From: Dastarcus helophoroides
Lineage: Eukaryota; Arthropoda; Insecta; Coleoptera; Bothrideridae
Assembly: GCA_028583605.1 (NCBI GenBank)
Contig: CM053328.1
Location: 9,192,782 to 9,256,781, forward strand
Direction of reading: 5' to 3'
DNA: 64,000 nt
Shown: piece by piece, positions 1 through 58,240 of the stretch
Layout of the letters: each line of letters opens with the position of its first letter
Position numbering within the stretch: the first letter of the stretch is position 1
Notes under the pieces: model-generated
The model's input: the letters and a program-made list of their open reading frames with translations, nothing else
Told to the model about the DNA's origin: nothing
Database searches by the model: none
Made by a program: the position numbers and the translations under genes

Positions 1-62
1 GTTATCATCTTCAGAGAGATACTCATAACATATTCCAATAATATATAACCAAGGACCAGTCC
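1..62 (+). mobile_element. Hairpin retroposon, 3' remnant cut by the window edge
   Basis: The stretch begins with the hairpin-loop sequence of the family (ATCATCTTCAGAGAGATACT) and ends with its fixed 3' tail (AACCAAGGACCAGTCCGTT). The second arm of the hairpin is missing between them, so this copy is internally deleted as well as cut by the window. The family is described in full at 44,839. Confidence 0.6.
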
Positions 63-99
63 GTTGCATTTAATTAATGATTTTTTTAATTTCTTATCT

Positions 100-1350
100 C
101 CTTTTGTAAAGTGTAAATTCAGAAACTCAAATTCAAAAACTTCGACTTGTTTTAGAAATAATAACATTCATCCTGAAATTTCGTTTATTTTTTATAAATT
201 TCCGTTTTAAACCCAAAACTTTTTCTGAATCATTTTCAAGTTTTTTTTTTTCTTTATTCTTGTAACTTTGAGTTTTTAACCCCGAGACTTTGAATTTATA
301 CTTGAAATTTCGATAAATATTTTTTAAGGATTTTTGAAAACAATCGAAAGTTTAAATTTGAAGTCTCAGAACTCGAAACGTAGAAAATGTTTAACTCTTA
401 CAAAACTCAGTTTTCTTTCACATACTTTTAATATTTTCAGTTTAAATTTGAAATTTTTAATTGTTCAGTTTTTTTAAAGAAATTTCTACTATATCAATTT
501 TTTCCAAGATATTTAAGTTTGTTCGTTAGATTTTTCTATTTCGATTTTTTTCTCGACATTTCGATGTTAACACTTTTACTTAATATAAAATCTATAACAT
601 AATTTGTTTCTTTTAATTCAATCAAAAGGTAATTACAACGATTTGTTTAATCAACTGATGGACTTATCGATTATTTTACTTTTATTGCGATCCCAAGCCA
701 CGATATGATTACAACAAACTGTGATTAAATTAACTCAAATTCAAAAACTCCTATTTAATCAGAATCACTATTTATTTCCTCAATAATGCCATGTCATAAA
801 GAAATTTTTATCCCTTTATCTACTAACATAGGTATCTAGTGAAAATTTCCTATATATTGAGCAAAGCCAAAGTCTATCAAGACCCTTTAATCATACCATA
901 GGTATGAATTACGTAAATAAATCTATCCATATGTATCATAAATATCCTTCATGTGAATATATTTATCAAAATAGCAAGCTTAATTATTGTATTGATTTCA
1001 GTTTAAATAAAATATTCACGTGTTAATAAATTGAGTGCGTCGAGGCAACAAATATTTTTATTACAGCGATATTAAGAGTTTATAAATTCAAGTGTTTAAT
1101 AAGTTCCACAAGGACACAAATTGTAATTAAAATGAGTTCGATTGTTCACGCCTTCATTCAAATTATTACCCTCCTAACGATTTTTAAGGTCAACTATTTG
1201 TATCGAACTAATTAACGCCGAGATTGGCGAAAACACGTTTACCACATTACAAAAGTGATTAATCCCGTCCGTTTACATTCCCTTTTGTCGCTGAAAATGG
1301 TTAGCTGAAAACGTAAACAATACACGTGCGGTTTGACATCCACATGCGAT
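100..1350. other. AT-rich stretch without a recognisable gene
   Basis: The first 500 bases are T-rich and carry poorly preserved copies of the 18-base unit seen in the large arrays. From about 600 the sequence is more complex but has no ORF of note, no RNA gene and no repeat shared with the rest of the window. Confidence 0.4.
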
Positions 1351-1356
1351 AACAAT

Positions 1357-1372
1357 TTGGCGGATGCGCCAG
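1357..1372 (+). promoter_or_regulatory. Variant copy of the TTGGTGGATGCGCCGG motif
   Basis: The sequence is TTGGCGGATGCGCCAG, 14 of 16 bases identical to the other five copies. Its two differences make the core a perfect inverted repeat (TGGCG-gatg-CGCCA), which suggests a dyad-binding protein or a small stem. Function is unknown. Confidence 0.5.
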
Positions 1373-1448
1373 GATCTGTTTTCGCTTCTTTATAACTACT
1401 GAATTTCGTTTAGCTACCCAAATAGGTTTACAAACTCTAGTAGTTTTT

Positions 1449-1653
1449 TGTTTGGTGAAACGGACTGGTCCTTGGTTATCTTCAAAAATTGAAATACAAA
1501 TCTTGTCCCCTGAAACCAAGAAAAATTAAAAAACACAACAAAGGTTGATCTAACGCGTTTCAATAGTCAAGCTATCCTCTATGGAAGCGCGTTAGAGCAA
1601 CCTTTGTTGTGTTTTCTAACCTTCTTGGTTTCAGGGGACAAGATTTGTATTTC
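1449..1653 (-). mobile_element. Hairpin retroposon, full 3' end, flanked by a 17 bp target duplication
   Basis: Read on the minus strand, it starts at GAAATACAAATC, folds back on itself, and ends in the tail ..CCGTTTCACC followed by A residues. Flanking direct repeats are AAACTCTAGTAGTTTTT (1432-1448) and AAACTGTAGTAGTATTC (1654-1670), 14 of 17 identical. Repeats of that length are expected from target-primed reverse transcription, not from a cut-and-paste transposase. Part of the loop is missing. Confidence 0.75.
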
Positions 1654-1676
1654 AAACTGTAGTAGTATTCTATAAA

Positions 1677-2060
1677 TTGAGTTTAAGATCCAAATTTTCT
1701 AATTTCTTCCGGCACTCGGAATTAATTAGGAATTTCCTCCGATTTTCAATAATGCAAGTGGGCTGTATTGGCTTAATAAAACGACACACTTTAAAGTGCA
1801 ATACGAGCGTAATATCCTTCTACATAGTTAATAAAGGAGAGCTATTATCTGGAACGACATTCTCTTGGAAGGAATCGATACTTGCGATTTCGTGTAAGTA
1901 CACCCAGCATATACGTAGTGTCATTGCATCCTTGTGTTCACATAGAGTCAACAGTTTCATATATTTGTCTGAGATACGCGTAAATAGTGGGTCCTCGTGG
2001 TATATCGTGGTACAACAGCTCTGAAGATAGACGACAATTACGAAACTGATCATTACATAT
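1677..2060. other. More complex island with overlapping ORFs, no recognised product
   Basis: A 115-codon frame runs on the plus strand (1677-2024) and a 77-codon frame on the minus strand (1820-2053). Neither resembles a family I know. On the minus strand a pyrimidine tract followed by CAG lies near 2024 (..CGTCTATCTTCAG) and would make an acceptable 3' splice site. It could be an old exon, a decayed element or regulatory DNA. Confidence 0.2.
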
Positions 2061-3120: not shown

Positions 3121-3127
3121 ACTGTCT

Positions 3128-6039: not shown

Positions 6040-6262
6040 GGAACAACGGACTGCTTCTTGGTTATCTTCAAAAATTGAAATATAAATATTGTCCCCTGAA
6101 AGCTAAAAGAGATTAAAAAACACAACAAAGGTAGCTCTAACGCGTTTCGATAGCCAGTATCTCTCTGAAGATGATAGCTTGGCTATCGAAACGCGTTAGA
6201 GCAACCTTTGTTGTGTTTTTAATCTTTCCTTGATCTCAGGGAAAAAGATTCACATTTCAATT
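6040..6262 (-). mobile_element. Hairpin retroposon, diverged copy
   Basis: Both arms are present: ACGCGTTTCGATAGCC on the left and GGCTATCGAAACGCGT on the right. The 3' tail is at the left end on this strand (GGAACAACGGACTGCTTCTTGG) next to a T-run, the complement of an A tail. No clear target duplication survives, and the 5' end is mutated relative to other copies. Confidence 0.7.
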
Positions 6263-7260
6263 TCTGATCTATAAGAAAAAAAAGTGAACAATTTATATCC
6301 AAGCTAACAATTCCAAAAAAAAAAATGAACATTGATAATTTGTAACTTCCAAAAACAAATGTTGCTAAAATTTAAATTCTCCTAAGAGATTTTTTTTTGC
6401 CTTTAGAGTGGAAATGTTAAAGGAACACAGCAATTTCAAGTTTTTCATCAACATTTTGAATTTTTTTTAAATAAGCCCACAGAATTTTAACTTTTCACTC
6501 CAGGATAGCGATTTATGTAAACTTGGGTAACTTGTAATCTTGTAAAAACTAATTACATCAGAATTACAAAATAATACCATAAATATATTGAATTGTTTAA
6601 TTATTTTCTTCCTCAGGTGTGTAGTTTTCTCTTAAACATGGAGTTTAAAAAGAGCCAACCTTGAATTTAACATAGTGCGAACAAAACGTCCAGATTTCTA
6701 CAGAATACTCAAAAATTTTAATTCTATTCATGCCAAATTAAGTTTTTTCTGAAAATTAAGTATACACTTTATGTTAAAAAAAATAGCAGATTTGACTTTA
6801 AACCTGAAAGTGTTACCTTCTCTCTTTAACTTCGAAATTCGAAGAAATGAAAAATTGGAAATTTAGTCTCTAATTTTACCACGAAGTCAAATTCAGGAAA
6901 AACTAAAATTTACAAAGTAAATATTTTTAAAATTCCATATTTTTTCTCCAAATTTCAATATTTTTTTGAAAATATTCGAGTATTAAAAATTAGTTTTCTA
7001 ATTTTCTCTTAGAGTCGCTATTTTAATATTAATTAAAAGCTTTCATCAGAAGATGTCTTGAAACTTGGAGGTTCCAGTGGTAGTTACAAAATAAAGAAAG
7101 TCATTCTTTTGAGAAAAAAATAGAAATGGCTAAGAAGAATTAAAAAGTTAGACTACAAGCTAAAAATGTTTATCTTTTCTCAAAATGTTGATGTCAAAGT
7201 TAAAATAAAAATTAATGATATTGTAACAAAATCTAGTTATAAAATTTGTATTAGTGATAT
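6263..7260. other. AT-rich stretch, nothing recognised
   Basis: About 1 kb with no ORF above 60 codons, no RNA gene and no repeat shared with other parts of the window apart from scattered 18-base-like units. Confidence 0.4.
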
Positions 7261-7807: not shown

Positions 7808-7809
7808 AA

Positions 7810-8720
7810 ATTTCATGTGAAATGTCGAGATAAATGTTCGAGTAGAAAGAAAAAATTCTTCGTAGCCTGAAGCCAAACGACTGGAACTTTCAAAATAAAA
7901 ATTAGGAGTAAATACTCCTATTTTTTATCCTAAAAAATTTTAGGCAGGTGTTTTCCCTATATTTACAGTTTTATTGGGAAAGTTTTTTTTTACAATTTTT
8001 ACAATAAAATTGAAGTTTATATTTATATAAATTAGTCTTTGATTATTTTCTAAGCATTTTGATTATGATGATTCAGAGAATGTATGAGATATCTGGAAGG
8101 AATAACGTATTTATAGAAAAACCCAACAAAATCTTGGGTTGCTGCCAATACAAAACCATCTCTAAAGAATGGCCATGAAAAGCCGACAGTTGATTTACTG
8201 TATATTACTATTCAATTCCATTTCAGTGTGTAATTAGGGAAGATCAACGCCCCAAGAAAATCACCCCCATTTGTAAAAATCGCGTGTTCTTATCTTGTAT
8301 CTCAAAAAGATCGAACAAAACGCGTTTCCATTTTATGGCTTTTAAAGAAATATGTGTATCCAACGATGCTAATAACTTAAGGTCAAGGCTGTACACTGAC
8401 AAATTATGGGTTTGATAGCCCTTAAGCAAAGCTATTGCTTTTACACACATGACAGCGCGGCACGTGTGGAATTGGAATCATTTACTAAAAATTTTCGTAA
8501 AGAGGTTAGTGCACCCGGAAGAAATTTAAGCCCGTGATTAACATAAGTTTATTCACAGCTATTAAATTTTATTAACGATTAAATGCTTTTTAAGCGTTAA
8601 TTAAAAAGCAATTGATATTAAAAATGAATATTAAAGAATTCCACGAAATAAGGGTTGGAAATGTCAACTTTAATTTAGAAATTGGCAATGCCCAGTGGCC
8701 AATTTTTAAAAAGTCTTTAC
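7810..8720. other. Unique AT-rich stretch, no gene recognised
   Basis: The part from 8060 to 8500 is somewhat more complex and holds a 68-codon minus-strand frame (8244-8450) with no recognisable motif. Nothing supports coding. Confidence 0.4.
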
Positions 8721-8740
8721 ATTGTTATTGTTTAAAAATG

Positions 8741-8965
8741 GAAATACAAATTTTTCTCCCTGAAACCATGAAAGTTTAAAAAATACAACAAAGGTTGCTC
8801 TAAAGCATTTGGGCAGCCAGTATCTCTTTCAAGACGATAGCTTGGCTAATCGAAACGCGTTAGAGCAACCCTTGTTATATTTTTTAATATTTCTTGGTTT
8901 CAGAGGACAAGATTTGTATTTCAATTTTTGAAGATAACCAAGAACCGTTCCGTTTCACCAAAATT
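8741..8965 (+). mobile_element. Hairpin retroposon, plus orientation
   Basis: Starts at GAAATACAAAT, carries both arms (AAGGTTGCTCTAA and TTAGAGCAACCC) and ends ..CCGTTTCACCAAAATT. ATTGTTATT occurs just left (8721-8729) and just right (8966-8974), a candidate short remnant of the target duplication. Confidence 0.75.
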
Positions 8966-9198
8966 ATTGTTATTCAAAGATAAAATTCGAAATTTCAAAT
9001 TAAAAATACCCAATTTAAAAAAAAAATAAAATTAAAAATTTTAATTACAAAATGTTTACTTATTTCGTAACATTTTCAGAGAATTAAAATAGTTTCAAAA
9101 TTTTTTTTTGAGATTTAAGAGACAGTTTTATATTGCCCAATTGCTATGTTTTTATCAGTTTTAAAATTGAAATTTGCATTTTTTTCTTTGAAATTTCG

Positions 9199-9249
9199 AG
9201 TAATTAATAGTTTCTAGTAATTAATAATTTCTAGTAATTAATAGTTTCG
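9199..9249 (+). repeat. Three tandem copies of a 17-base unit
   Basis: AGTAATTAATAGTTTCT is repeated three times with two substitutions in total. Confidence 0.85.
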
Positions 9250-10416
9250 ATTTTAGTTCAAATTCTAATAAACAATTAAAAATTTCATGTTTTCTCCTTC
9301 CAAAATTTATCTTAAATTCAATCTAAATTTTAAGAAATAAAATTAAAAATTCCAAGTATAAACCTCAAGTTGCCTTATTACTATTATATCGTTTTTTCTT
9401 ATGGAACAAGAACACTTTAAACAGTATTTCATTATAAAATTATATTGTCACATTTAGACTTCTTTCGTTTCATCAATAATTTAGTAATGTAGGTCGATTC
9501 AAACACAAGCTATGATTTTGTTTTAACCATAAATTAACTTAGCAATAAGTCTGTAGATTTTAAATAATAAAACGTTGCACTCGGCCAATCGAGAGCGATC
9601 GAATTAATATTAAAGTAGAGTAAAATAATGATACGCTTGTGGCTGAATCTCACGATTTCAATTTAAGAAATTTAAATTGAGAAACTTGGCTTTAGCCTTA
9701 AAATATTTATAGAGTTCAACATTTTCTAAAAAAAATCGACGATAAACTTAACGTTTACGAAAAACATATCGGACATTTTTTGAAAATTAGTGTTCAAAGT
9801 TAAAACTTAAATTTAATTTTTGAAATGAGGATTGTAAAAAAGAATTGAGAGATGTAACGAGTGAAATATGAAGAGAAATTCGTTCATTTGAAGTTAATCT
9901 TGTAACGTTGATTTTATTCTCAAATTTTCAACTTTGTTTAATTTAAGAAAATTAATATTTTAAGTCAATATTTTGTAAAGATCCTGGTCCGATAATATCT
10001 AATATTTGTTCAAACTTCGTAGAATATATAATTGTTATACTTATTGTCCATTATTTGCTCTATTATCGGAAAAGGCCAATACCATGATTTGCACCAAAGC
10101 ATAATAGTTGCCTCTTGGATGCCTTCCTTTAAGAGTGTACACTTTTAAATTGTGATTAAGTCCAAAACCTGGCACTCAAAAACGACTCTCAGTCTGTATG
10201 AATGTCTATCATCACGCTACAGGTCGCAATGTTTAACCAGTTTTTGCCCTTGAATATATTTTATGAATTTTGAACTTCCAGAAAAATACCGAAACTGCTT
10301 TATTCCCAAAATATTTATTTTGAAGTCAAAATTTTTAGTGAAAAGTTATTTCGAAAGTGAAAGCCGAAAAGAGATAAAGCTGGAAATTTAAGGATTAGAT
10401 TCTAAACTTGAGGAAC
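9250..10416. other. AT-rich unique sequence, nothing recognised
   Basis: No ORF, RNA gene or shared repeat. The part between 10,060 and 10,220 is slightly more complex but gives no protein-like frame. Confidence 0.4.
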
Positions 10417-10430: not shown

Positions 10431-10614
10431 GGTCGAACGGACTGGTCCTTGGTAATCTTCAAAAATTGTAAAACAAATCTTGTCCCCTGAAACCAAGAAA
10501 GATTAAAAACACAACTAACGCGTTTCGATAGCTAAGCTGTCATATTCAGAGAGCCTCAGGGTGTTTTTTAGTCATTTTTGTTTTCAGGATACAAGATTTG
10601 TTTTTCAAGTTTTG
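10431..10614 (-). mobile_element. Hairpin retroposon with a decayed second arm
   Basis: The 3' tail is at the left (GGTCGAACGGACTGGTCCTT) next to a T-run. One arm is intact, but most of the other has been lost around 10,545-10,560. Flanks AAGAAATTTTTTTT (10417-10430) and AAGAAATTATTTCT (10615-10628) agree at 12 of 14 positions and may be the target duplication. Confidence 0.65.
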
Positions 10615-10629
10615 AAGAAATTATTTCTA

Positions 10630-13774: not shown

Positions 13775-14640
13775 CCAAATTGGAAAATAATGAATGAGTT
13801 TCAAAAAAATCCACATCCTTCAAGTCGATAAGTAGCTGCAGCACTGAACGTTAGTCATTTCTCGATTATTAGTGTACTGAAAGAAAATAAGCTGCATCCT
13901 TATAATCTGACACCATGTAAAGAGCTCAGTGAGTACGATTTTAATAGAAGAACTCACTTTTGTGACCAAATGATGCAACGATTAGATAATAATGTCTTCG
14001 AAATAGAAAACATATTGTTTTCTGATGGGTCCACTTTTATTCTTCACGGACATGTAAATCGTCAAAACTGACGCTATTGGGCTAGGGAAAATTCCCAGTG
14101 GGTGAGAGAATGGCATACACAGAACCCTGAAAAAGTTGATGTTTGGGCAGGGATTATTGGAAATCATATCATTGGTCCAATTTTCATTGATGAAAATTTA
14201 AATGGAGATAATTGTTAAGCATTGATCCCAAACAACATTGTACCAGCTTTGATAAATGTATATCCAGCTGAAGAAAATCCACACTTTTCAGCTAATGTAA
14301 TATGGTTCAAGCAAAATGGAGCACCACCACGCCACCAGGTCAATGGCCGGCAATATCTCAATTTTACATTTTCAAATCAGTGGATAATTAGACAAGGTAC
14401 GGTATAATGCCCACCACGATCACCAAACCTGACGCCTCTGGACATTTTTTATGGGGTTATGTGAAAGGTACAGTTTATAAAACCAAACCCCGCAACGTAG
14501 CTGACTTACTAGCAAGAATAACGCTTGCGATTGCGTCGGTGACACCAGAGGTGTTGATTAATGTCAAGAGACATTTTTATTCAGTATTAGGATGCTGTCA
14601 AGTTGTTGGAGGTGCCCATTTTGAACATATTCTACATTAG
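13775..14640 (+). pseudogene. Tc1/mariner-superfamily transposase pseudogene (DD41D-like)
   Basis: An old copy of a cut-and-paste DNA transposase. The readable protein runs from an N-terminal helix-turn-helix remnant (VAAALNVSHFSIISVLKENK) through the first catalytic block (ILFSDGSTF), DVWAGIIGNHIIGPIF, the second block (WFKQNGAPPR) and the third (PPRSPNLTPLD, then FLWGYVKGTVY) to GGAHFEHIL before the stop at 14,640. The spacing between second and third catalytic positions is 41 residues, as in the DD41D group of IS630/Tc1/mariner elements. It is dead: stop codons near 13,839, 14,068, 14,216 and 14,405, a one-base frameshift near 14,440 inside LDFFLWGY, and the second catalytic Asp replaced by Asn. 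No terminal inverted repeats were found. Confidence 0.85.
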
Positions 14641-15617: not shown

Positions 15618-16993
15618 CAGGTGGACCATAAGTAATGGTACATAGAGCAAGAGTAAATTTTTCGTATAAAAATAAAGTGATTTAGCCACATTTACCTTAT
15701 GCCAAAAGTTGATAGTAACAGAGGTATAAGGTGTCAAAGTTGAAAAAAAAATTGTGATTTTTTCGCATAACTGATGAACACATTTTACTAAAGACAAGCA
15801 ATTTGGCATAGAGGGGTTCCTTTGGTCAAGAAATTCTAATTTGCTAACAGATTGCCAGTAACTCATAGGGGGCGCCACCTCCGTTACCTTGTATTATTCT
15901 AAAGCATCTTAACTTCTTTGTGCCTTTATGTACACTTATTTTAAGTAGATATTTTTGCTAACCTACATTTTGTACGTAAAAAAGGTATACTTTCTAAATG
16001 TTGATACAATAAACCGTTTTCAAGATATTTACTTTCAAAATTTGCAGTATGTTTATTTTAAGTTATGTAAATGTGAATTTTTCGCAGTAGCTTTCAAAAT
16101 AAAAGTAATAAAACTGACTCTAATATAGTTCATATCAAATATTGCTCCACTGACATTATTATTACTATTATTTTAAATTTCTAAAGCAAATTTAAATAAA
16201 ATACCAAAACAAAATTTATTTTCAAAAATAAGTTTGTGAGAAATGACTTTTTTCATGTAAAGGGATTGTAAACAATTAAAAATCTGGGTGTCTTTTATTG
16301 AAATTCATCTTTAAATATGTGCTTTGACCACACAGATTATTAAAATTTTCTTGTGGGACTCGGACATCATATCTCACATCTCTACGTTAGAAAATAAATA
16401 ACGTCTTAATTTTTTGGATTTTCTTTATTGAGATTTTCAACATTTAGGTAAAAATATTATCAGCAAAGTAATATTTGACATAAATAACTTTCAAAGCTGT
16501 CTTATGATTACTTTTTTTTTCAAGCCTACTTCGAAAATTTAATATCTTTGCAATTTAAAACCAAGGCACGTCAAGCTATAAAGGCAAATATCTTGGAAAC
16601 GGTTGCTCCAAACTTTTAAAAACTACACCTTTTTTACGTAAAAAATATGGGAAAATAAAATAACCCATTTAAAATTTATATACGTGGATGCACAAAAAAG
16701 TTATGACGATTTAGAATTATGCAGGATAGCCCAGGTAGCGCCCCCTATCAGTTATTGGTAATATGTTAGCAAATTAGAGTTTGTGGACCTAAGAAACCCC
16801 CTTGTTCCAAATTTTGTACCAATATTAGAACTCATTCCATAGTTATACGGAAAAATCAAATTTTTTTTTCAACTTTGACACTCTGTATCTCTGTTAATAT
16901 CAACTTTTGGTATAAGGTAAATGTAGCTAAATCACATTATTTTTATTCAAAGAATCCACCATTGCTCTATTTACCATTATTTATGGTCCAGCC
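15618..16993. mobile_element. TA-flanked fold-back transposon, 1,376 bp, copy 1
   Basis: The element begins CAGGTGGACCATAAGTAAT and ends with the complement, GGTCCAGCC. The two halves are inverted copies of each other over almost the entire length (about 650 bp arms). TA stands on both sides (15,616-15,617 and 16,994-16,995), as with Tc1/mariner-type insertions. It encodes no transposase. Each arm holds a perfect AGGGGGCGCY core (15,867-15,876; complement at 16,737-16,746) like that bound by CTCF. Its transcript would fold into a very long double strand. The 100-codon minus frame at 15,576-15,878 lies over the end and is not a gene. Confidence 0.8.
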
Positions 16994-17034: not shown

Positions 17035-17796
17035 GGATTTTCCTAGTGGAAATTTTACTTAACTCTGCAAGTGTAACTTGTTCCTATTCCAGATGAAGTA
17101 GTCCTCTGTAAAACAGTGCTTGGCATGTGCAAAGAAGTGTTCTGCTGTTTCCTTGGCTTCGTTGCACAAGCGGCAATCTCTGACTGCTTTGCATATCTTT
17201 TTGAGATGGGATCTTAGCGGGCAGTATTCTGTACGAAGCCCTGTTATTAATCTTAACTCCGGTTTGCTGAAGTCGAGTCTTCGTTCTGGTGTGCGAATAT
17301 GTGATGAACTTTTTCGCATGGTGTTGTCCTGAAATTAATTTCCAGTGGGATTATTTTTGTTTCTTTTCCCATTTTGGACTTCATTTCTTATGTGACATTT
17401 TGCTACATCAAAGTAAGGTTCGACTCCAAGAAATGAAAATGTTGCATCTTCTCTTACTAGGTAATCAGCAATCTCATTTCCTTTAATGCATATGTGTGCT
17501 GGCACCCACATTAAGATTACCTTGTTGTGGGCAGCCAACTGTTTAAGTAGTTGTAGACAGTCCCACACTATTATGGATTCCACAGTAAAGCTACTCAGAG
17601 CTTTAAGAGCCGCTTGAAGGTGTGAACAGATATAGATCCTTGCTCCTCCTAAGTCCTTCGATAGGGATTCCCGACTGCATAGTTCTACGGCATGTACTTC
17701 TGCCTGGAAGATTATGTGGGTTTGACCTAAGGCTTTTGTTAGCCTACAACTTGGGGCATACACACCAACCCTAATTTCTGCTGTTTTTGGTCCATC
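17035..17796 (-). pseudogene. LINE 3' part: RNase H domain and C-terminal Cys/His region
   Basis: The C-terminal part of a non-LTR retrotransposon polyprotein. On the minus strand it resumes at the first catalytic Asp of RNase H (DGPKTAEIRVGVYAP), continues with FQAEVHAVELC (catalytic Glu), SHLQAALKAL, WVPAHICIKGNEIADYL (last Asp), and after a frameshift near 17,330 with RKSSSHIRTPERRLDFSKPELRLITG and the zinc-type CRLCNEAKETAEHFFAHAKHC, stopping near 17,059. In SHLQAAL the usual catalytic Asp of SDSQAAL is His, and the frameshift also kills it. RNase H-bearing LINEs of the I/LOA type fit best. The preceding part lies at 19,547-20,085, across an inserted LTR. Confidence 0.85.
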
Positions 17797-19546
17797 TGTT
17801 ACGGTTTAAATTTCCGTTAGAAATAGGGCTTGTGGCTAGGCCACCAAACATACATTGGTTGGTTTTATAAGTGCTGGCATATCTTCTGTCAGTCTTGGTG
17901 TGGGAGAAATCGGCCATCTTTTCTCTGGTCGTTCGCTTGGGTGTCATCCTTCTCAAGGTGAGGTTACAGCATTTTCCAAGTGCATCTTGGTTGTTTTTCC
18001 TGTAAGGGATTTACTGTAACCCATCTTCGGATCGTCTGGGGCTATTGTATTTTGTAGTGTTATTGTGTGTGAACTAAAACCTCAGATGGTTCCGGTATTT
18101 CGGGAATAAGCAGGAAGGTGCTTCCCAAGCACGCGGCAGAGTCGACTAATAACCAAGGTATGAGCATGTGCCCCTCAACCCTCGGTATTTGAAAGGGTAA
18201 ATCCTATTTTTCTTCATCCTTATAGGCTCTTTTTCGGTTGGGATCCTTGTCGGATTCATTTTTAAATCCTGGTCATCAGAAACTTTGGATCCATCTCTGA
18301 TCGGCCAATCAGGACCTGAAAAGGGACACGGGGAGTTTCAAAGGAGTGGCCATCGTCTCGTGGAAACCTCCAAGTGTGGGCTTCGAGGACTTCGGTGAAG
18401 GGAGTTCGTGTAAATCGACTCAGTAGCTGCACGAAATACCAGCATCCTTTTCGACCTGGGACCCTTCACGACGATCACTTAAGTACCCCATCTTTATATT
18501 TTTATTTGGGGATTGTCCCAACCATGTCAATTATTTGGAGTGAACCTAAAGTATAATTCAGTTTGAAATTTTACCTACAGCCCCTTTTCATTTGTTTACG
18601 TAGCTTGTTCTGGTGGGCTTGGGTCCAGCCAGTGTCAATTTTGTTCCAGTTGTCTCATTAATTGTTTTTGAATTCAAAGCCTTAAATTTAGATAGCCTAT
18701 TTAATTTTCCCCGGCTCTAATTAGTGCTAAAACGAGACAGGAACCTCAAATTTGTACTCATTAACCGAGAATGTTAAGATATGAAATATGTATTAAAGGT
18801 AACGTTTACCAACTTTTGTAAACAGCTGTACGGAACAAAGTGCGCACTTTCTTTCAATAAATAGTGTCAGTACTCTAAGACCAGAATAAGAAAGTTGTGA
18901 AAGATACACGTACCTTGAGTGCGTACATTATCAATTGTAAAATACCGTGCAGTACATTAGAGCTTATTCTGCCTTTGAAATATTTTGTTTTATTGCTTCT
19001 AAGAATTATTTTCCTGTCTGTCTAAATTGTAAGGGTAGAACATAGACAGCAACACTCTCAATAAGGTAGGTCACAGAGAGAGTGGCAACGAGAACGGGAA
19101 CTACGCCATCTAGGAGTGAATTGTCCAGCTTCCGTGATTGAGTATCTTTTGGTGAATTTTTCGACGTCTCCGATTGGTATATTGCGTGATTCAAAATCAC
19201 CTGGCGCCCCCTTTTTGGTATTCTTTAGCCGTCGTGCCGCGCAATTACCAAACTTAATTCTATTTAAGCGGAATCTGGGACTTAGAAATATTTTCACTCC
19301 TGAGTTCCGGACTTGTCACTTTTTGGGAAGTTTTCCACTCAATAGATTTTCACATCGACCCAAACGAGGGGTCCTCACAGGGGTGTACGACTCCCAGCCT
19401 GTAACAAGAAGAGGCTCTTGCTCTTTCCCCAACGCTAGCCGGCGATAGTGAAGGACTTTTTTTTTAGTCTGATAGTGGCACTTAGGAGAATTATAAATTA
19501 TAAATACTTAGCCACGACTCCTTCACTGGGGAAAAACCCCGTAACA
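17797..19546. mobile_element. Solo-LTR-like insertion, 1,750 bp, inside the LINE
   Basis: The segment starts TGTTACGG and ends CCGTAACA, a perfect 8-base inverted repeat with the TG..CA ends of LTRs. It is flanked by identical CATC on both sides (17,793-17,796 and 19,547-19,550), a 4-base target duplication. Removing it and one CATC restores the LINE reading frame exactly across the junction. I see no second internal copy of the ends, so it looks like a solo LTR rather than a full element. AATAAA occurs at 18,857 and an AGGGGGCGCC core, on the minus strand, at 19,203-19,212. Frames inside (110 codons at 19,116-19,448 among others) show no known domain. Gypsy or Bel/Pao origin is possible; I cannot decide the transcribed strand. 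Confidence 0.8.
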
Positions 19547-20597: not shown

Positions 20598-20836
20598 TTT
20601 TTTGGTGGAACAGACTCGTCCTTGATTATCTTCAAAAATTGAAATACAAATCTTGTCCCCTGAAACCAAGAAAGATTAAAAAACACAGCAAACGTTGTTC
20701 TAATGTGTTTCGATAACCAAGCTGTGATCTTGCATTATCTCTGAAGATGATAGCTTAACTATCGAAACACGCTAGAGCAACATTTGTTGTGTTTTTTAAT
20801 CTTTTTTGGTTTCAGGGGACAAGATTTGTGTTTCAG
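20598..20836 (-). mobile_element. Hairpin retroposon with a 17 bp target duplication
   Basis: The tail complement TTTGGTGGAACAGACTCGTC is at the left and the 5' start CTGAAACACAAATCTTGTCC at the right on the minus strand. Flanks TAGAAAATGTTGTTTTT (20,581-20,597) and TAGAAAATGTCTTTTTT (20,837-20,853) differ at two of 17 positions. Both hairpin arms are present. Confidence 0.8.
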
Positions 20837-21029: not shown

Positions 21030-21263
21030 AACAAATCTTGTCCCCTGAAACCAAGAAAAATTAAAAAAACACAACAAATTTTGCTGTAACGCGTTTCGAT
21101 AGCCAAGATATCATCTTCAGAGAGATACTGAAGATGATAGCTTGACTATCGAAACGCGTTAGAGCAACATTTGTTGCGTTTTTTAATCTTTCTTGGTTTC
21201 AGGGGACAAAATTTGTATTTTAATTTTTGACGATAATCAAGGACCAATCCGTTACACCAAAAT
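21030..21263 (+). mobile_element. Hairpin retroposon, near-complete hairpin
   Basis: Begins ACAAATCTTGTCCCC, shows both arms joined by the loop CATCTTCAGAGAGATACTG, and ends ..CCGTTACACCAAAA. It is inserted in the 18-base array, whose low complexity hides any target duplication. Confidence 0.8.
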
Positions 21264-29880: not shown

Positions 29881-30003
29881 ATAAGCCAGATTGCAATTGC
29901 AAAGTTCACGTAGATGAGGCAAACCTTGTCTTACGGGTTGCATCGCAACATCCATTGATACGAATGTCCTGGGCGTGACTTTACTTTCATCTAGTTCGAC
30001 AAA

Positions 30004-30133: not shown

Positions 30134-30600
30134 TTTCAATAAAGATATAAATATACTGAAACTTTCAACAACTTGGGAAATTTAAGTTTCAACAAAATGA
30201 TCAATTTTTTCCCCTTCGCATCCCCTTCGAAGTGACGATTGGTGGACGGTAAACGGTGACAGTAGTTCGAAATTTCTTACGTCCCCCTGCGAGAATTTTA
30301 TAAAGCGATTCGACCGTAAGGGATAGAAAATGGCATTTGAATTCTTTTTTTGCAAACATTTTAGAAACCTTCGAGAAAAAGATTTCTTGTGAATTTTCGA
30401 CAATTAGCGAAATTGTTTTAATAAATGAAATTTTAATTTAAATTTGTTTTCTTTTACTGGAAATTTTTATCATTAAAGTTTTTGGAATCTTCGAGTGTGA
30501 TAATTTCAGACTTAAACCTCCACTTTAAAATAGAAGTTCTCAAGATTTATCACGAAACATTAAACATTTTTATTAAAAGATGAACGGTGCTTGTTAAGAA
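30134..30600. other. Unique AT-rich stretch, nothing recognised
   Basis: A slightly GC-richer block around 30,210-30,330 gives a 73-codon minus-strand frame without motif. No RNA gene seen. Confidence 0.35.
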
Positions 30601-34625: not shown

Positions 34626-34632
34626 AGATATA

Positions 34633-36007
34633 CACGGAGGACCATAAGTAATAGTACACAGAGCAAGAGTAGATTTTTCGTATAAAAATAACGTGACTTA
34701 GCCACATTTATCTTTTACCAAAAGTTGATATTAACGGAGATACAGGGTCAAAGTTGAAAAAAAAAATGGTGATTTTTTCGCATAGCTGATGAACACATTT
34801 CACTATAGACAAGAAATTTGGCATAGAAGGGTTTTTTTGGTCAAGAAATTCTAATTTGCTGACAGATTGCCAGTAACTCATAGGGGACGCCACCTGTGCT
34901 ACCTTGTATTATTCTAAAGCATCATAATTTTTTTGTGCCTTTATGTATACTTATTTAAATAGATATTTTTATTTACCTACATTTCTTACGTAAAAAAGGT
35001 ATACCTTCTAAATGTTGATACAAGCAACCGTTTTCAAGATATTTGCCTTCAAAGTTTGCAGTACGTTTGTTTTAAGTTATGTAAATGTGAAATGTTTCGC
35101 TAGTAGGTTTCAAAATTAAAGTAATAAAACTGACTCTAAAATAGTTTATATCAAATATTACTTTACTGACATTATTAGTACACATATTTTTTAAATTTTT
35201 AAAGTAAATTTACATAAAATACCGAAACAAAATTTATTGTCAAAATTAAGTATGTGGGAAATTACTTTTTTCATGTAAAGGGATTGTAAACAATTAAAAA
35301 TCTGGCTGTTTTTTATTGAAATTCATCTCCAAATATCTGCTTTGACCACCCAGACTATTAAAATTTTTTTGTGCGGAGTTGGACATCATATCTCACATTT
35401 CTATGTTAGAAAATAAATTTCGTCTTAATTTTTTGGATTTTCTTCATTGAGATTTTTAAAATTTAGGTAATAATATTATCAGCAAAGTAATATTTGACAT
35501 AAATAACTTTCAAAGCTGTCTTGTGATTACTTTTTTTAAGCCTACTTCGAAAATTTAATATCTTTGTAATTAAGAACCAAGGCACGTCAAAATTTAAAGG
35601 TAAATATCTTGGAAACGGTTGCTCTTATCAACTTTTAGAAAGTACGCCTTTTTTACCTTAAAAATATGGGAAATAAAATAACCCATTTAAAATGAATATA
35701 CGTGAATGCACAAAAAAGTTATGATGATTTAGAATTATGCAGGATAGCGCAGGTAGCGCTATCAGCTAATATATAGGTTAACAAATTAGAGTTTGTCAAC
35801 TTAAGAAACCCCCTTGTGCCAAAGTTGGTGCCTATATTACAATTCATTCCATAGTTATACGAAAAAATCGAAATTTTTTTTCAACTTTGACACCCTGTAT
35901 CTCTGTTAATATCAACCTTTGGTATAAGGTAAATGTAGCTAAATTACATTATTTTTATTCGAAAAATCCACCATTGCTCTGTGTACCATTACTTACGGTC
36001 CACCCTG
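34633..36007. mobile_element. TA-flanked fold-back transposon, 1,375 bp, copy 2
   Basis: Colinear with the copy at 15,618 over its whole length. Left end CACGGAGGACCATAAGTAAT after TA (34,631-34,632), right end GGTCCACCCTG. The right-hand flanking TA has changed to CA. The AGGGGGCGCY cores of copy 1 are mutated here (AGGGGACGCC on the left, deleted on the right). Internal frames are by-products of the inverted repeats. Confidence 0.8.
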
Positions 36008-36220
36008 CATACTTTCCCAAAAAATTATTTTTTTCCAACTTATGCTTTTTTTTTCAAAGTTTTGGACAAAAACTCGAAAATTAAAAAACCGAAGCCTCGA
36101 GTTTAAACTCATAATTAAAAAAAAAGTTAAGGATGCTGAAGAAAATGTATGTGAAAAAATTTCAAAAGTTTCGTTTTAATGCGAAAATATTGACTGTTAC
36201 AAATTGAATATCTACTCTAT
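36008..36220. other. AT-rich spacer
   Basis: No feature between the fold-back element and the palindrome at 36,222. Confidence 0.4.
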
Positions 36221-37815: not shown

Positions 37816-38039
37816 TTTTGGTGGAACGGACTAGTTCTTGGTTATCTTCAAAATTAAAATACAAATCTTGTGAAACCAAGAAAGATTATAAAACACAACA
37901 AAGGTTGCTCTAACATGCTTCAATAGATGTCATCTTCAGGGAAATACTGAAGATGATAGCTTGGCTATCGAAACATGCGTTAGAGCAAGCGTGTTTTTTA
38001 GTCTTTCTTAGTTTCAGGGGACAATATCTGCATTTAAAT
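37816..38039 (-). mobile_element. Hairpin retroposon
   Basis: Tail complement GGTGGAACGGACTAGTTCTT at the left next to a T-run; both arms present but with small deletions. Flanks ACCACATGAAC and ACAACATGATC (9 of 11 identical) may be a worn target duplication. Confidence 0.7.
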
Positions 38040-38106
38040 TTTACAACATGATCGAAGAAAACTGTTATTTTTGGATCAAACATCAATTTTATTAAAATAC
38101 ATCCTA

Positions 38107-38218
38107 AAAAATTTAATTACAAATTTTGTGCCCTGAAACCAAGAAAGATTAAAAAACACAACAAAGGTTGCTCTAACGCGTTTGGATAGCCAAGCTATCA
38201 TCTTCATAGAGATACCAA
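38107..38218 (+). mobile_element. Hairpin retroposon, 5' half (split copy)
   Basis: Carries the 5' arm from TACAAATTTTGTGCCC to the loop (CATCTTCATAGAGATACC), where it is interrupted. The 3' half resumes at 38,459. The outer flanks AAAATACATCCTA (38,094-38,106) and AAAATACATCGTA (38,603-38,615) differ at one of 13 bases and bracket both halves, proving they are one insertion. Confidence 0.8.
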
Positions 38219-38458
38219 ATTATTAAACTGTTACACCAGACTAATGTTTTTATAAATATGTTGAAACTTGTTTCTCTGATATAAAAAAAATGAGCAAGTG
38301 ACTACGACTGGATGAATTTAAAACCGTATTTTACACAAATAAGTGACTAAAATCGAATAAGGAATTAATTTAAGCACACAATGTAAAAATCAAAATTGTG
38401 TGCATTTTGGTGGATGCGCCGGAATTCGTCAGTTCTTTCCTTGATACCTTGTTTTCTG
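38219..38458 (+). mobile_element. ~240 bp segment inserted in the hairpin retroposon, carries the 16-mer motif
   Basis: The sequence from TTATTAAACTG to TTGTTTTCTGT interrupts the loop of a hairpin retroposon and is duplicated at 40,108-40,340. It contains an 8 bp perfect stem GCACACAA .. TTGTGTGC directly before TTGGTGGATGCGCCGG (38,407-38,422). It has no inverted terminal repeats or clear target duplication that I can see and no reading frame. It is called mobile because it entered another element and exists twice. Confidence 0.6.
38407..38422 (+). promoter_or_regulatory. Copy of the TTGGTGGATGCGCCGG motif
   Basis: Exact 16-base copy within the inserted segment, followed by AATTCGTCA. Confidence 0.5.
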
Positions 38459-38602
38459 TTAGTAACTCTCTGAAGATAATAGCTTGGATATCGAAACGCG
38501 TTAGAGCAACTTTTCTTGTGTTTTGTAATATCTCTTGGTTTCAGGGGACAAGATTTGTATTTTAAATTTTGAAGATAACCAAGTACCAGGCCGTTCCACA
38601 AA
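38459..38602 (+). mobile_element. Hairpin retroposon, 3' half (split copy)
   Basis: Resumes with CTCTCTGAAGATAATAGC, carries the 3' arm (ATCGAAACGCGTTAGAGCAA) and the tail ..AGGCCGTTCCAC followed by A7. See the 5' half at 38,107. Confidence 0.8.
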
Positions 38603-39322: not shown

Positions 39323-39787
39323 TATGTTTATTAATTTTATTTAACATTTCTTCGGTCCAGTTTGGAGATATTTAAATTTTTATTGTTTGTTGACAATATT
39401 CTAAACAGTTTTTGAAATATGACTACGTGATATTTAAATTTATTTAAAACGTCACCTCAATGACAGTTGACAGAATAAGAGAGCGAAACATCGATGTCCA
39501 GTGCTACAACCTTTTTTTATGTATTTTTTATATTTTCATAATTTATCAAAAACACGAAATTTTTTTCATATCTAATTTTGGTCTTTTATTTTTTATTTTT
39601 CCTATTCCATGTATAATAAACTAACCTCTTGATTTTGTCAACTGTCATGAGGTGACGTTTTAAATAAATTTAAATATCACGTAGTCATATTTCAAAAACT
39701 GTTAAGAATATTGTCAACAAACAATAAAAATTTAAATATTTCCAAACTGGGCCGAAGAAATATTAAATAAAATTAACTAAACATATA
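39323..39787. mobile_element. Fold-back element, ~465 bp
   Basis: Inverted arms of about 150 bases: 39,323-39,473 (through TTCGGTCCAGTTTGGAGATA to GTCACCTCAATGACAGTTGA) and 39,634-39,787 (TCAACTGTCATGAGGTGAC to CCAAACTGGGCCGAAGAAA), separated by a 160-base T-rich centre. No coding content. A decayed piece of the same family is at 34,396. Confidence 0.75.
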
Positions 39788-44821: not shown

Positions 44822-44838
44822 AGTTAAAATTTCAAAAA

Positions 44839-45057
44839 TTGAATTACAAATCTTGTCCCATGCATCCAAGAAAGATTAAAAAACACAACAAAGATTACTC
44901 TAACTCTCTGAAGATGATAGCTTGGCTATCGAAACGCGTTAGAGCAACCTTTGTTGTGTTTTTTAATCTTTCCTGGTTTTAGGAGACAAGATTTGCACTT
45001 CAATTTTTGAATAAAACCAAAAACTAGTCCTTGCCACCAAAAAAAAAACAAAAAAAA
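44839..45057 (+). mobile_element. Hairpin retroposon with A-tail and 17 bp target duplication (best example)
   Basis: Starts near TTGAATTACAAATCTTGTCC; the two arms pair over ACACAACAAAG .. CTTTGTTGTGT and beyond; then the tail and about 25 bases of almost pure A. Target duplication AGTTAAAATTTCAAAAA (44,822-44,838) and AGTTGAAATTTTGAAAA (45,058-45,074) agree at 13-14 of 17 positions. In complete copies the element is about 230 bases: 100-base 5' arm, short loop (CAGAGAGATACTG), 100-base 3' arm, 35-base single-stranded tail GAAGATAACCAAGGACCAGT.. ending CCACC, then A's. No protein and no good pol III A/B box pair is present. It must be copied in trans by a LINE. Confidence 0.85.
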
Positions 45058-49573: not shown

Positions 49574-49968
49574 GGTTGAAATACAAATCTTATCCCCTGA
49601 AACCAAGAAAGATTAAAAAACACAACAAAGGTTGCTCTAACGCGCTTCGATAGCTAAGCTATCATCTTCAGAGAGATATTGAAATGCAGAATTTGTCCCC
49701 TGAAACCAAGAAAGATTAAAAAACACAACTTCAGAGAGAAACTGTTTCTCTCTGAAGATGACACGCGTTAGAGCAACCTTTGTTGGGTTTTATAATCTTT
49801 CTTGGTTTCAGGGTACAAATTCTGTATTTCAATTTTTGAAGATAACCAAGGACCAGCCCATTCCATCAAATTCAGAGAGATACTTTTAATCTTTCTTGGT
49901 TTCAGGGGACAAGATTTGTATTTCAATTTTTGAAAATAACCAGGACCAGTCCGTTCGGTTCAAAAAAA
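49574..49968 (+). mobile_element. Composite of three partial hairpin retroposons
   Basis: A 5' half (49,574-49,677) is followed by a shortened hairpin (49,680-49,867, its central loop reduced to CAGAGAGAAACTGTTTCTCTCTG) and then a third 3' half (about 49,868-49,962) ending in A10. The outer flanks both contain AAAGTTACG (49,565-49,573 and 49,969-49,977), so the whole composite may have moved as one unit or formed by recombination between copies. Confidence 0.75.
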
Positions 49969-53330: not shown

Positions 53331-53347
53331 TTCGAAATTCTTTTTTG

Positions 53348-53395
53348 CATTTCAATTTTTGAAGAAAACCAAGGACCAGTCCGTTCCATCAAAAT
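53348..53395 (+). mobile_element. Hairpin retroposon, 3' tail only
   Basis: Only the last 48 bases of the element remain (TTTCAATTTTTGAAG .. CCGTTCCATCAAAA). A severely 5'-truncated insertion, as LINE machinery commonly makes. Confidence 0.75.
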
Positions 53396-54950: not shown

Positions 54951-55320
54951 TACGTTTTAAAACTTTTTCCTACAATTAGTGCCGTTAAAATACCGTAACT
55001 ATTTAAATAAATGTTTTGAAATCTGATAATATAAGATTTGCATTTCAATTTTTTAATAGTATTCTTGTTCCTAACTGTAATTTATTTGACGTTGTGGCTA
55101 TTACTCAAAAAATAGGTAAGATCAAGTCAGGCTTGTACTAATTACTAGAGTAAACAGTCAATAGACCAAACTAAATCATTTTTACTAATGTTTATGTTTG
55201 AAATTTTATCCAAATTTTCTTGTGTTCTAATTGAAAAATAAAAAAAATATCTCTTTTTAAATAGACACTTTTTTCTACAATCAACCGCAATATTTATGGA
55301 ATTGGTTACTGTGTTGGTGT
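54951..55320. other. AT-rich stretch, one possible retroposon scrap
   Basis: AAGATTTGCATTTCAATTTTT at 55,027-55,050 resembles the 3' arm/tail border of the hairpin retroposons. Nothing else recognised. Confidence 0.35.
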
Positions 55321-55324
55321 CTTA

Positions 55325-55527: not shown

Positions 55528-55530
55528 TTA

Positions 55531-56050: not shown

Positions 56051-56055
56051 TGAAC

Positions 56056-56130
56056 GGTCGGGTGGCTCAGTGGTTAAGACGGCAGTTTGATAGGTCTCAT
56101 AACTTACGGGTTTAAATCTCGCTGTCGTCG
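56056..56130 (+). tRNA. tRNA-like sequence (pseudo-tRNA or SINE head)
   Basis: TGGCTCAGTGG at 56,063 is a textbook A box and GGGTTTAAATCTC at 56,108 a near-B box, 35 bases apart, about tRNA spacing. CTCATAA at 56,096 resembles a methionine (CAT) anticodon loop, but the anticodon stem is off by one and the acceptor and D stems pair poorly. A decayed tRNA or the tRNA-derived head of a SINE is more likely than a working tRNA. Confidence 0.4.
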
Positions 56131-56213
56131 AGGCGTTTTTTAAATCCATTACACATCTTACTCATAACTACATAGCACTGTTAACAGCAGAGAGTATCGC
56201 TTGTTCAAATTTA

Positions 56214-56490
56214 CGTGATGGTAACACGAAATCATAAATTTTCCCCCCATCCAAAATCGTCCAACGCGCCTAGAGAAGTTTTCATTTCAAAAATCGATAC
56301 ACGATAAAACAAATTGAAAAAAAAAAGAAAAAATAATAAAGAAGGTAATAAATGGGATCAAGTGACATCGGCTAGTCTCTAAATAAAAAATTACAGAAAA
56401 AATCCAAATGCAAACGGAACTTAATAAAATTGATAAAAACTGTAGAATACGTTAGTAATGCATGATGGTCACGCGTGATGGTAACACGAA
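56214..56490 (+). repeat. Identical 17-mers 260 bases apart
   Basis: CGTGATGGTAACACGAA occurs at 56,214-56,230 and 56,474-56,490. Sequence beyond the 17-mers is not similar, so this could be a target duplication around an inserted 243-base segment or a short gene-conversion tract. Confidence 0.5.
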
Positions 56491-56996
56491 GTTTACCCCT
56501 ATGCACGCATTACATGATGCGCAAGTTACATAATTGCGCAACTTGCATCATTACGCAACCCGCAATTCACGCATTTATCAGAACGCGTGAGCGCTACATG
56601 GTGTGTGTGGCACAAGCTGAAACAGCCTGTTACAGCCAGTGCTCGGAAATTCACAACGGTGCCCATTTTGATGATGTAATTCATCACTTATATTCAATAT
56701 ATTTAGTTACTTTTCTGTGTTCGAGATGTTCGGATTATAGTGACCGAGAAGGGCGTGAGGGCGGTCGACTTTCTTCTTCATTAATTAATGTGCTAGGTAC
56801 CGCTTTTATACGAGAGAGTACAGCCCTTGATGTGCGGAATACCTTCTCAATAAAGGGGGTAGGCACTTTTAAGAGGCATGTATATACAACGTTTTCTTTT
56901 GTGGAAGTTTGTCGCCTGATGGCTTTAAAAAAACTGCATACACCTGATCTCCTTTTCTACCATCGCTTCACTCATCGAATACCAACGCGCGCGTAA
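56475..56996 (+). CDS. 173-codon ORF of unknown nature, probably not a host gene
   Basis: The longest open frame in the window. It starts at an ATG inside the second GTGATGGTAACACGAA repeat and ends at 56,996. The predicted protein is rich in His, Cys, Arg and Thr, has no signal peptide or clear membrane segment, and matches no family I know. Its N-terminal quarter is encoded by repetitive sequence (GCAAGTT .. AACTTGC inverted repeat at 56,520-56,545; several GCGCAA/ACGCAA repeats), which argues against an authentic start. Base composition is nearer balance than the flanks. A decayed transposable element, an LTR or a lineage-specific gene are possible. A hairpin retroposon follows 135 bases downstream. 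Confidence 0.2.
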   Translation: MMVTRSLPLCTHYMMRKLHNCATCIITQPAIHAFIRTRERYMVCVAQAETACYSQCSEIHNGAHFDDVIHHLYSIYLVTFLCSRCSDYSDREGREGGRLSSSLINVLGTAFIRESTALDVRNTFSIKGVGTFKRHVYTTFSFVEVCRLMALKKLHTPDLLFYHRFTHRIPTRA

Positions 56997-57132
56997 ACAA
57001 TGTTCTTAGTGCCATGAGATGTACTGCCAAGTTTTGCATTTTTGTATTTGCAATATTTCTTTATTTTTTCTTCGACAATCTTTATTATTTGTCTAATATT
57101 AAATTTTCTAATAATAGAACAAATACTATTTT

Positions 57133-57300
57133 TGGTGGAACGGACTGGTCCTTGGTTATCTTTAAAAATTGAAATACAGAACTTGTCCCCCCAGGATCTT
57201 TGAAGATGACAGTTTGGCTGTCGAAACGCGTTCGAGCAACTTTTGTTGTGTTTTTTAATCTTTCCTGGTTTCAGGGGACAAGTCCTGTATTTCAATTTTT
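57133..57300 (-). mobile_element. Hairpin retroposon with exact 17 bp target duplication
   Basis: Flanked by AGAACAAATACTATTTT on both sides (57,116-57,132 and 57,301-57,317), identical at all 17 positions, the youngest-looking insertion here. On the minus strand it starts AAAAATTGAAATACAGGACT and ends ..CAGTCCGTTCCACCA. One arm has lost about 60 bases, so the hairpin is shortened, yet it was mobile with intact ends. Confidence 0.9.
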
Positions 57301-57309
57301 AGAACAAAT

Positions 57310-58240
57310 ACTATTTTATGACAAAAGCTTACTTTTGAGTAAATATATAAAGAAAAATTTCTGTTAAGAGGCACAAAATAAAAGACGTAAAGCAAAACCC
57401 TAAAAAGAATTAAAACTCCTTATTTTGAATTGCACCCTAATTTTATGACGCCCATATGCGCACTCAAAATTTCTTATTACAAATCAATCCCATGATTCGA
57501 CTTCGATTTAACGCTTACTATTTTGCTTTTAGCTCCGGAAAAGTAATTGAACAAGTTGGTTTTTTGTCCAATAAAATGATAAAGTAAACCGAATTCGCGC
57601 CGTTAAAGATACATCATCACGTAGAATTCCGTCCGGATAAATGACTTCCATGATTAAAAGCAGATTTTTCAGGGAGAGTAATAAATTTAACGTCGTGTTT
57701 TCAATGTCCACCCTTCATGAGCGTACACAGTTCGAATGAAGCGCAATTTTTACGTAGAAATCAATCACTTCAGTTGAAATGAACTCGTGAATTTAACACC
57801 TACGCTTTGCCTCCACTTTCGTAGGAAAAATCTATTTTCGAGAATATATCAAGATGATAGATGATTTTTAACCGTCTAGGACTTAACTAATTCAGGAGCT
57901 AACACGTTCTATTTTCTAATGGGTGCCTCTTTCTCAAGCCACTGCATTGGGATCTCACTTATTTAGTTGAAAAATTACGAAGTTTTCTTTAACAGTTCTG
58001 CTTCGAACATTTCAATTAAATTTATGTGAAATTTAGAATTTCTACATTTTTTTTTTCAAATTCTTTAGATTATTTTGCTTAGCTTTGAAGCCAAAAAAAA
58101 AACAAAATTTTAAGACAAATAATTAATTTTACAAATTTTAAATTAATGAATTAAAAATTTCTTCAATTAATTATTTTTGTGCAATAATTTTTCACTTTAT
58201 TGAAGAAAGATCTGCCGCAATAAACGTAGAAAAAACGTTT
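57310..58240. other. Unique sequence with a GC-richer part at 57.5-57.9 kb
   Basis: A 60-codon minus frame (57,529-57,711) has no motif. No RNA gene or repeat recognised. Confidence 0.35.

Follow-up and report, generated by a model that had tools for sequence, protein, structure and literature searches.

A 64,000-nucleotide (nt) stretch of contig CM053328.1 from Dastarcus helophoroides (termed the window) contains a family of short repeats in which two arms of a common sequence stand head to head and, in most copies, one end alone carries a tail. These copies are very probably insertion products of Penelope-like retrotransposition, i.e. of two-ended target-primed reverse transcription by the machinery of a Penelope-like element (PLE). 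This reading is based on the end points of the arms, the direct repeats at the flanks, the differing junctions, sequence variants shared by the two arms of a copy, an excess of one-tailed copies, and the same anatomy in a second PLE family of this genome (termed Pen-A). From these observations we infer the template, the enzyme, the order of steps, and that the start of the RNA is the start of transcription. A previous sequence-only reading of the window had listed 13 places and had described a hairpin-shaped, A-tailed retroposon. All 13 hold the family, and the place at 49574 holds two copies, one nested in the other.

The sense strand of the family (the “RNA”) is numbered 1–139, from GTATCTC to CCACC. 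A typical copy, read towards the tail, consists of an antisense arm from AAAAATTGAAATACA, a centre, a sense arm, the tail GAAGATAACCAAGGACCAGTCCGTTCCACC and a few A. The whole genome searched comprises 538.9 Mb in 50 contigs. Head-to-head arms were paired in the window, in 20 unselected 10-kb stretches taken at round coordinates, and at 29 query-selected loci (30 were found with the copy at 57133, but L001 is the window copy itself and was left out). L-numbers (L007, L048 etc.) denote genomic loci or stretches outside of the window. Two window pairs with a long gap (38101–38599 and 49576–49956) were paired by hand. The 67 raw pairs were reduced to 63 by removal of three duplicate or chance pairings and of the copy cut by the window edge (1–68).

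A script classed 56 of the 63 pairs as one-tailed, 3 as two-tailed and 4 as tail-less; with L021 1488–1662 read by eye as two-tailed, the numbers are 55, 4 and 4. The 56 script-classed pairs (23 unselected and 33 query-selected, L021 being counted among them) form the set for the direct-repeat, arm-agreement, junction and end tests. The query is itself lopsided, which biases the 33 query-selected copies to lopsided arms, so inequality of arms was judged on the 23 unselected copies. The unlike ends previously noticed, a tail end and another end, are confirmed, with the 3 two-tailed and 4 tail-less pairs of the script as exceptions.

The exact 30-nt tail has 2,769 matches in the genome (1,371 and 1,398 by strand), and the reversed control has none. 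The 20 unselected stretches display 18 match clusters at E ≤ 0.05, some of them weak, which gives a rough genome total of about 5 × 10^4 places. The tail pattern was also sought in viral contigs, with 0 matches. Where copies share flanks downstream of the tail, the matches listed come only from adjacent copies, local duplications, AT-rich sequence and another PLE.

The outer end of the tail arm is at RNA positions 133–139 in 54 of the 56 one-tailed copies. The outer end of the other arm is at positions 103–113 in 41 copies, at 114–124 in 11 and elsewhere in 4; in the group of 11 the alignment has run into the flank, or includes part of a tail, or ends in a real tail (L021). When the borders are set by the direct repeat, the inner site is mostly at RNA 104–110 and the outer site mostly a few nt past CCACC, about 33 nt apart. 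Inverted arms resembling pseudo-long terminal repeats (pLTRs), with a tail of 30–40 nt on one end, are a characteristic of PLEs and are found here. The same applies to the target site duplication (TSD). Direct repeats were scored as the best ungapped match between the two flanks (+1/−2), with shuffled flank pairs as a control. A score of at least 9 is reached by 38 of the 56 copies (5.7% of the shuffled pairs), and a score of at least 12 by 16 (0.3% of the shuffled pairs). Lengths are mostly 9–18 bp and the commonest is 12; a single value of 31 bp is AT-rich low-complexity sequence. Of five copies for which direct repeats had been reported, the one at 57134 has an exact repeat of 18 bp and those at 1454, 20604 and 38101 also have one, but the repeat at 44831 is weak and AT-rich. 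The nested copy at 49678 has 12 bp without a mismatch, and the remaining repeats of the window contain mismatches or are shorter.

The A’s previously described after the tail are present, but the run is short. In the 38 copies with a direct repeat there is a median of 1 A between tail and direct repeat, and of 2.5 A (range 0–11) directly after the tail match. With at most 11 A, none of these 38 copies has the long variable poly(A) tail of an L1-type retroposon. A copy at 53348 that had been described as tail only is indeed a tail fragment.

The centres of the copies differ. Among the 56 one-tailed copies, arm ends and gap combine in 55 distinct ways, and all 56 junction strings differ. Arms differ by more than 20 nt in 12 of the 23 unselected copies and in 31 of the 33 query-selected copies, the set biased to this property. 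Lopsidedness goes both ways: at 57134 a full antisense arm faces a short sense arm, and at 44831 the reverse is seen. The RNA 5′ end (position ≤12) is reached by one arm or both in 16 of the 23 unselected and 31 of the 33 selected copies. L048 has a full antisense arm and only the tail on the other side, with a direct repeat present. The hairpin of about 100 paired bases that had been described holds in so far as the two arms are real, but the pairing is variable, with only about 27 paired positions at 57134 and none in L048.

At 12 variable sites, the two arms of a copy carry the same variant in 208 of 248 cells (84%). Shuffled arm partners agree on average in 54%, and 0 of 2,000 shuffles reach 84%. 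The consensus sequences of the two arms differ at 2 of 115 compared positions (19 and 29), which we attribute to most of the selected copies belonging to a single subfamily. We infer that both arms were copied separately from the same RNA species at each insertion. A clonal hairpin RNA predicts a common centre, and the centres differ; the sequence-only proposal of a short hairpin RNA as template is therefore not supported, and the mostly unequal arms and the unpaired L048 also speak against it. Because the junctions differ and copy-specific variants are common to both arms, the hairpins most likely arose anew with every insertion, the template being an RNA of about 142 nt that was not itself a hairpin. 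A spliced RNA as the source of shortened arms (arm 2 holds TTTCTTGGTTTCAG) was considered and rejected, since the junctions scatter.

This RNA resembles the 5′ end of a PLE in having a hammerhead-like core, an ATG at the known place, a frame that is open, and end points at two sites some 33 nt from each other, the interval that forms the tail in PLEs. It reads GTATCTCTCTGAAG-ATG-ATAGCTTGGCTATCGAAACGCGTT-AGAG onward, and the frame is open for 43 codons; 5.8% of same-letter shuffles are as open. Counted from the start of the frame, the end points are at about 95 and about 128 nt. The core, CTGAAGA..GAAA, is kept in most arms, its stems can form, the ATG is at stem II, and cleavage is predicted 27 nt downstream of the ATG. 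The stem II pair 19–29 is T-A in 27, C-G in 30, T-G in 7 and other in 4 of 68 arms, a covariation that may represent one single event. Templates cut by the hammerhead were rejected as a source of short arms: there is no pile-up of arms at the predicted cut (RNA 41/42), although 4 of the 56 copies have an arm ending at RNA 37–42.

Pen-A serves as a control PLE. It was found at L047 4714–8127, L008 2190–3178, L007 2598–3177 and L031 1943–2626. L047 encodes a reverse transcriptase (RT; PF00078, E = 3.5e-11) whose relatives, among the matches listed, include those of chimaera, lamprey, insects and flatworms; one match carries PF01541. The L047 sequence also shows a protein with the motif YIGETGRS, followed by a hammerhead-like stretch CTGAAGAAGCCCCCTACGATGGTGGACGAAACGTC. 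The short Pen-A copies, L007 and L031, are head to head, with one end tail-less and the other tailed, and have exact direct repeats of 13 bp and 11 bp, respectively. Pen-A and the short-copy family thus share head-to-head arms, a tail-less and a tailed end, a hammerhead-like CTGAAGA..GAAAC and direct repeats, but Pen-A has another sequence and possesses RT and GIY-YIG-like coding parts. In L027 (1616–1796) Pen-A sequence lies between two inverted tails of the short-copy family. L034 contains a diverged PLE-like nuclease fragment without a link to that family.

The proposed process of insertion would be as follows. The template would be the non-hairpin RNA of about 142 nt, which would start with (A)GTATCTC, continue with the hammerhead-like core overlapping the ATG, and then contain the first 43 codons. 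A candidate PLE enzyme (GIY-YIG nuclease and reverse transcriptase) would cut both target strands about 9–18 bp apart, and each cut end would serve as a primer on which this one RNA species is reverse transcribed. One strand would start at the outer site just past CCACCAAA, about 128 nt into the frame, and produce the tail; the other would start at the inner site, a U5 run about 95 nt into the frame, and have no tail. Each cDNA would extend towards the RNA 5′ end and stop there or sooner. Joining of the two cDNAs at a copy-specific place would leave two inverted arms head to head, with a single tail and a direct repeat on either side. Genome-wide, a GIY-YIG profile search gave 91 matches among 150 scored of 1,070 candidates.

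If start sites were chosen at random, 13.2 of the 26 unselected pairs would be expected to be one-tailed; 23 of 26 were observed (P = 1.4e-4). The query-selected counts in this test, with L021 reclassed, are 32 one-tailed, 3 two-tailed and 2 tail-less. The excess suggests coordinated use of the two start sites by the two strands, although the figure for this coupling is provisional in that tail-less copies may be under-detected. It appears an evenly balanced proposition that PLE insertion is two-ended with fixed roles, the outer site serving one strand and the inner site the other, giving an inverted one-tailed pair, and that it has here produced tens of thousands of copies of a SINE-like (short interspersed element-like) family, perhaps without a surviving parent that bears an open reading frame (ORF).

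Several observations weigh against the PLE interpretation, or against part of it. No direct repeat at score 9 is present in 18 of the 56 copies. The sole two-tailed pair and one of the two tail-less pairs of the unselected set are in L036, where 8668–9732 is a tandemly duplicated stretch with several family copies, and these two may be rearrangements; the tail-less copy and its neighbour have the same junction. The three unselected pairs at L036 8668, 9024 and 9389 are accordingly not independent, and the one-tailed excess has P = 6.5e-6 without the first-named two pairs and 1.2e-5 when the third L036 pair is also omitted. L013 2330 and L041 8710 have one junction type in common. The Pfam GIY-YIG model was not matched in the Pen-A fragments of L047 and L008. 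A search of one monomer of the family for Rfam hammerheads (E up to 10) gave none, but none was found in the control PLE either, so this negative is uninformative. In addition, no PLE ORF was found continuing from the family start among 150 scored of 76,042 candidates, where open frames are at most 202 amino acids (aa); the longest are 202 and 200 aa, and the 202-aa frame, at C7:40649650, on inspection is an ordinary insertion. In EN+ PLEs such an ORF encodes a telomerase-like RT and a GIY-YIG nuclease. A full PLE suspected between same-strand tails 3.7 kb apart (C1:1771821–1775600) consisted only of more short copies. Finally, 6 of the 23 unselected copies are near-symmetrical, as a palindromic template would give, and L022 2064–2313 is a full palindrome; centres that differ and are lopsided could also result from palindromes that were altered once inserted.

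The last points belong to an alternative in which the source RNA was itself palindromic and inserted by target priming, and the centres were later cut and rejoined, or the reverse transcriptase skipped within the stem. Fixed outer ends and direct repeats are expected here as well, yet this is unlikely: a palindromic master would have to keep its arms alike through subfamily change, two-tailed and tail-less copies would require extra events, L048 retains one full arm but only the tail of the other, and Pen-A, the control PLE, has the same shape. Self-priming (snap-back) of cDNA or antisense RNA, as proposed for the inverted repeats of bdelloid PLEs, is improbable. Tight-centred head-to-head palindromes do occur (L022, L008), but snap-back predicts equal arms, at odds with the inequality counted above, and by itself leaves the start of the second arm at the inner site unexplained. 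Inverted-repeat MITEs (miniature inverted-repeat transposable elements), i.e. DNA transposons, possibly spread later by reverse transcription like the primate retro-DNAs, are a very remote prospect. The inverted arms of about 100 nt and the few copies with like ends resemble such elements, but the direct repeats are variable, mostly 9–18 bp, the ends are unlike in 56 of 63 pairs and the centres differ. When ends were tabulated for the 63 pairs and direct repeats for the 56, much as the sequence-only reading had advised, the fixed short duplications and like ends of a MITE did not emerge as the pattern, and its choice of target-primed reverse transcription over a MITE stands.

Its assignment to a LINE- or SINE-type (long or short interspersed element) origin is not supported, though LINE 3′ ends were not compared. 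The head of a SINE derives from tRNA, 5S, 7SL or snRNA and has a Pol III promoter. No tRNA was found in the window (bacterial settings) and no Rfam family reached the gathering score; the best lax Rfam matches are microRNA-precursor models, far under their gathering scores, of the kind that long hairpins attract. PLEs, in contrast, match the family in its ends, in a tail of 30-odd nt on one side only, in the hammerhead-like start and in arms that stand head to head. A related proposal is a variant of two-ended PLE insertion rather than a rival to it: the copies may form a SINE-like non-autonomous family in which a short RNA is transcribed from its own promoter and mobilized in trans by PLE proteins, instead of representing the dead 5′ remnants of PLE messengers. 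This is a real possibility, but somewhat short of an even chance. The high copy number and the ORF search described above, which gave no ORF-bearing partner, are consistent with it, as is L043 5683–6317 (minus strand), which holds tandem 182-bp monomers with TATATAA 33 nt upstream of the inferred RNA start. This array is a possible source locus, and the TATATAA hints at a promoter, but the TATA spacer was observed in this one array only, and a PLE-like coding start (ATG, open frame, predicted ORF start MIAWLSKRVRATF) has been kept. Under two-ended PLE insertion two origins of the copies may therefore be considered: dead 5′ remnants of a PLE messenger, the parent having been lost or having escaped the search, and a non-autonomous family mobilized by other PLEs.

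Insertion by PLE machinery can be compared with other systems. In human L1 twin priming, the 5′ part is inverted, both strands are primed on the RNA and direct repeats are formed; the position of second priming is variable there, and only a minority of copies are inverted. In the family described here, by contrast, the second site hardly varies. SINEs and LINE 3′ tails are short and abundant, with direct repeats and A at the 3′ end; the family differs from SINEs by having no tRNA or Rfam relation in the window, a short A-run, an inverted arm and a PLE-like start.

A close mechanistic parallel is Poseidon of Anolis carolinensis (PAc), a Penelope/Poseidon PLE. The study of it (PMC11167929) states that the PAc ORF starts at hammerhead stem II, with the cut 26 nt after the ATG, that reverse transcription starts within the RNA, at two neighbouring positions that delimit the PLE tail, most commonly 111–118 nt into the ORF, and that both target strands are cleaved and extended in vitro, later integration steps being left for validation. 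The family is like PAc in its hammerhead-like sequence with ATG at stem II, the cut (26 nt versus a predicted 27) and two adjacent start or end sites. It is unlike PAc in that its end points are at about 95 and 128 nt, and in showing the first 43 codons only instead of a full ORF. For the bdelloid PLEs, Pen2a_Av and relatives, PMC3846280 describes inverted and direct pLTRs, an optional 31-bp tail on one inverted pLTR, TSDs of 8–10 bp and first ORF codons inside the pLTR. Inverted pLTRs with a one-sided tail and TSDs are therefore already known, and in these the family and the bdelloid elements agree. The latter have few copies and long ORFs, and that source favours self-priming for inverted copies while calling for further experiments; the present family consists of very many short, mostly lopsided copies. 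Primate retro-DNAs, as described in PMC11195612, are DNA-transposon sequences with retroposon marks; they share these marks with the family, but have no terminal inverted repeats, and their poly(A) tails are of the L1 type. Among the titles and abstracts listed by searches of open-licence literature, none dealt with a PLE family that is SINE-like or with the coupling of start sites in genomes.

The family bears on how PLEs integrate and on why their copies are often inverted and tailed on one side only. A short and very abundant family provides many independent insertions with readable ends, centres and target duplications, and can separate self-priming (equal arms) from two-ended priming (unequal arms). 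If two-ended priming is correct, the hairpin is a by-product of insertion. The family is also a warning that such repeats can pass for MITEs or SINEs.

Copies in the window are listed in Table 1. With up to one mismatch allowed, the tail motif has 9 matches in the window (0.64 expected).

Table 1. Copies and fragments of the short-copy family in the window (arm positions in RNA numbering)
Positions	Strand	Feature	Arms	Direct repeat
1–68	+	Copy cut by window edge	Antisense bit 3–22 (RNA 1–20), tail 45–68	
1454–1655	−	Two-arm copy, tail end at 1454	Tail arm 13–139, other arm 27–104	ACTACTACAGTT / ACTACTAGAGTT
6045–6267	−	Two-arm copy	Tail arm 24–134, other arm 1–111	None at score ≥8
8722–8959	+	Two-arm copy	Tail arm 1–139, other arm 24–121	ATTGTTATT
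10431–10618	−	Two-arm copy	Tail arm 5–139, other arm 57–114	1 mismatch in 12
20604–20835	−	Two-arm copy	Tail arm 12–139, other arm 6–103	Around ACATTTTCTA
21031–21258	+	Two-arm copy	Tail arm 9–139, other arm 1–97	Weak, AT-rich only
37820–38058	−	Two-arm copy	Tail arm 27–139, other arm 9–124	None at score ≥8
38101–38599	+	Two full arms, 246 nt between	1–115, 1–138	AAAATACATC
44831–45038	+	Two-arm copy	Short other arm 39–112, full tail arm 2–139	Weak, AT-rich
49576–49956	+	Outer copy with second copy in centre	Other arm 2–104, tail arm 62–135	AAAGTTACG
49678–49865	+	Inner nested copy	Other arm 54–105, tail arm 32–137	TTCAGAGAGATA, exact, 12 bp
53344–53388	+	Tail fragment without other arm	93–137	
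55033–55056	+	Uncertain 24-nt match, may be chance	89–112	
57134–57300	−	Two-arm copy	Other arm 6–109, short tail arm 83–139	AAAATAGTATTTGTTCTA, exact, 18 bp

The direct repeat of the nested copy at 49678 is a duplicated piece of the centre of the outer copy. The sequence that parts the arms of the 38101–38599 copy (38216–38461) is, by eye, partly like sequence near 1359.

Other repeats and fragments are also present in the window. Positions 17335–17805 (minus strand) contain a fragment with an RNase H domain (PF00075, E = 3.4e-6), which we take to be LINE-like, and open-frame pieces at 13832–14637 are similar to transposases of the mariner type, a likeness assigned without a family search. 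Two large inverted repeats are found at 15622–16990 and 34629–36011, with arms of about 100–260 nt at 70–87% identity; their translated ends look alike by eye. Near-perfect inverted repeats are found at 30001–30136 (68-nt arms without a spacer, 94%) and at 39331–39776 (129-nt arms, 188 nt apart, 97%).

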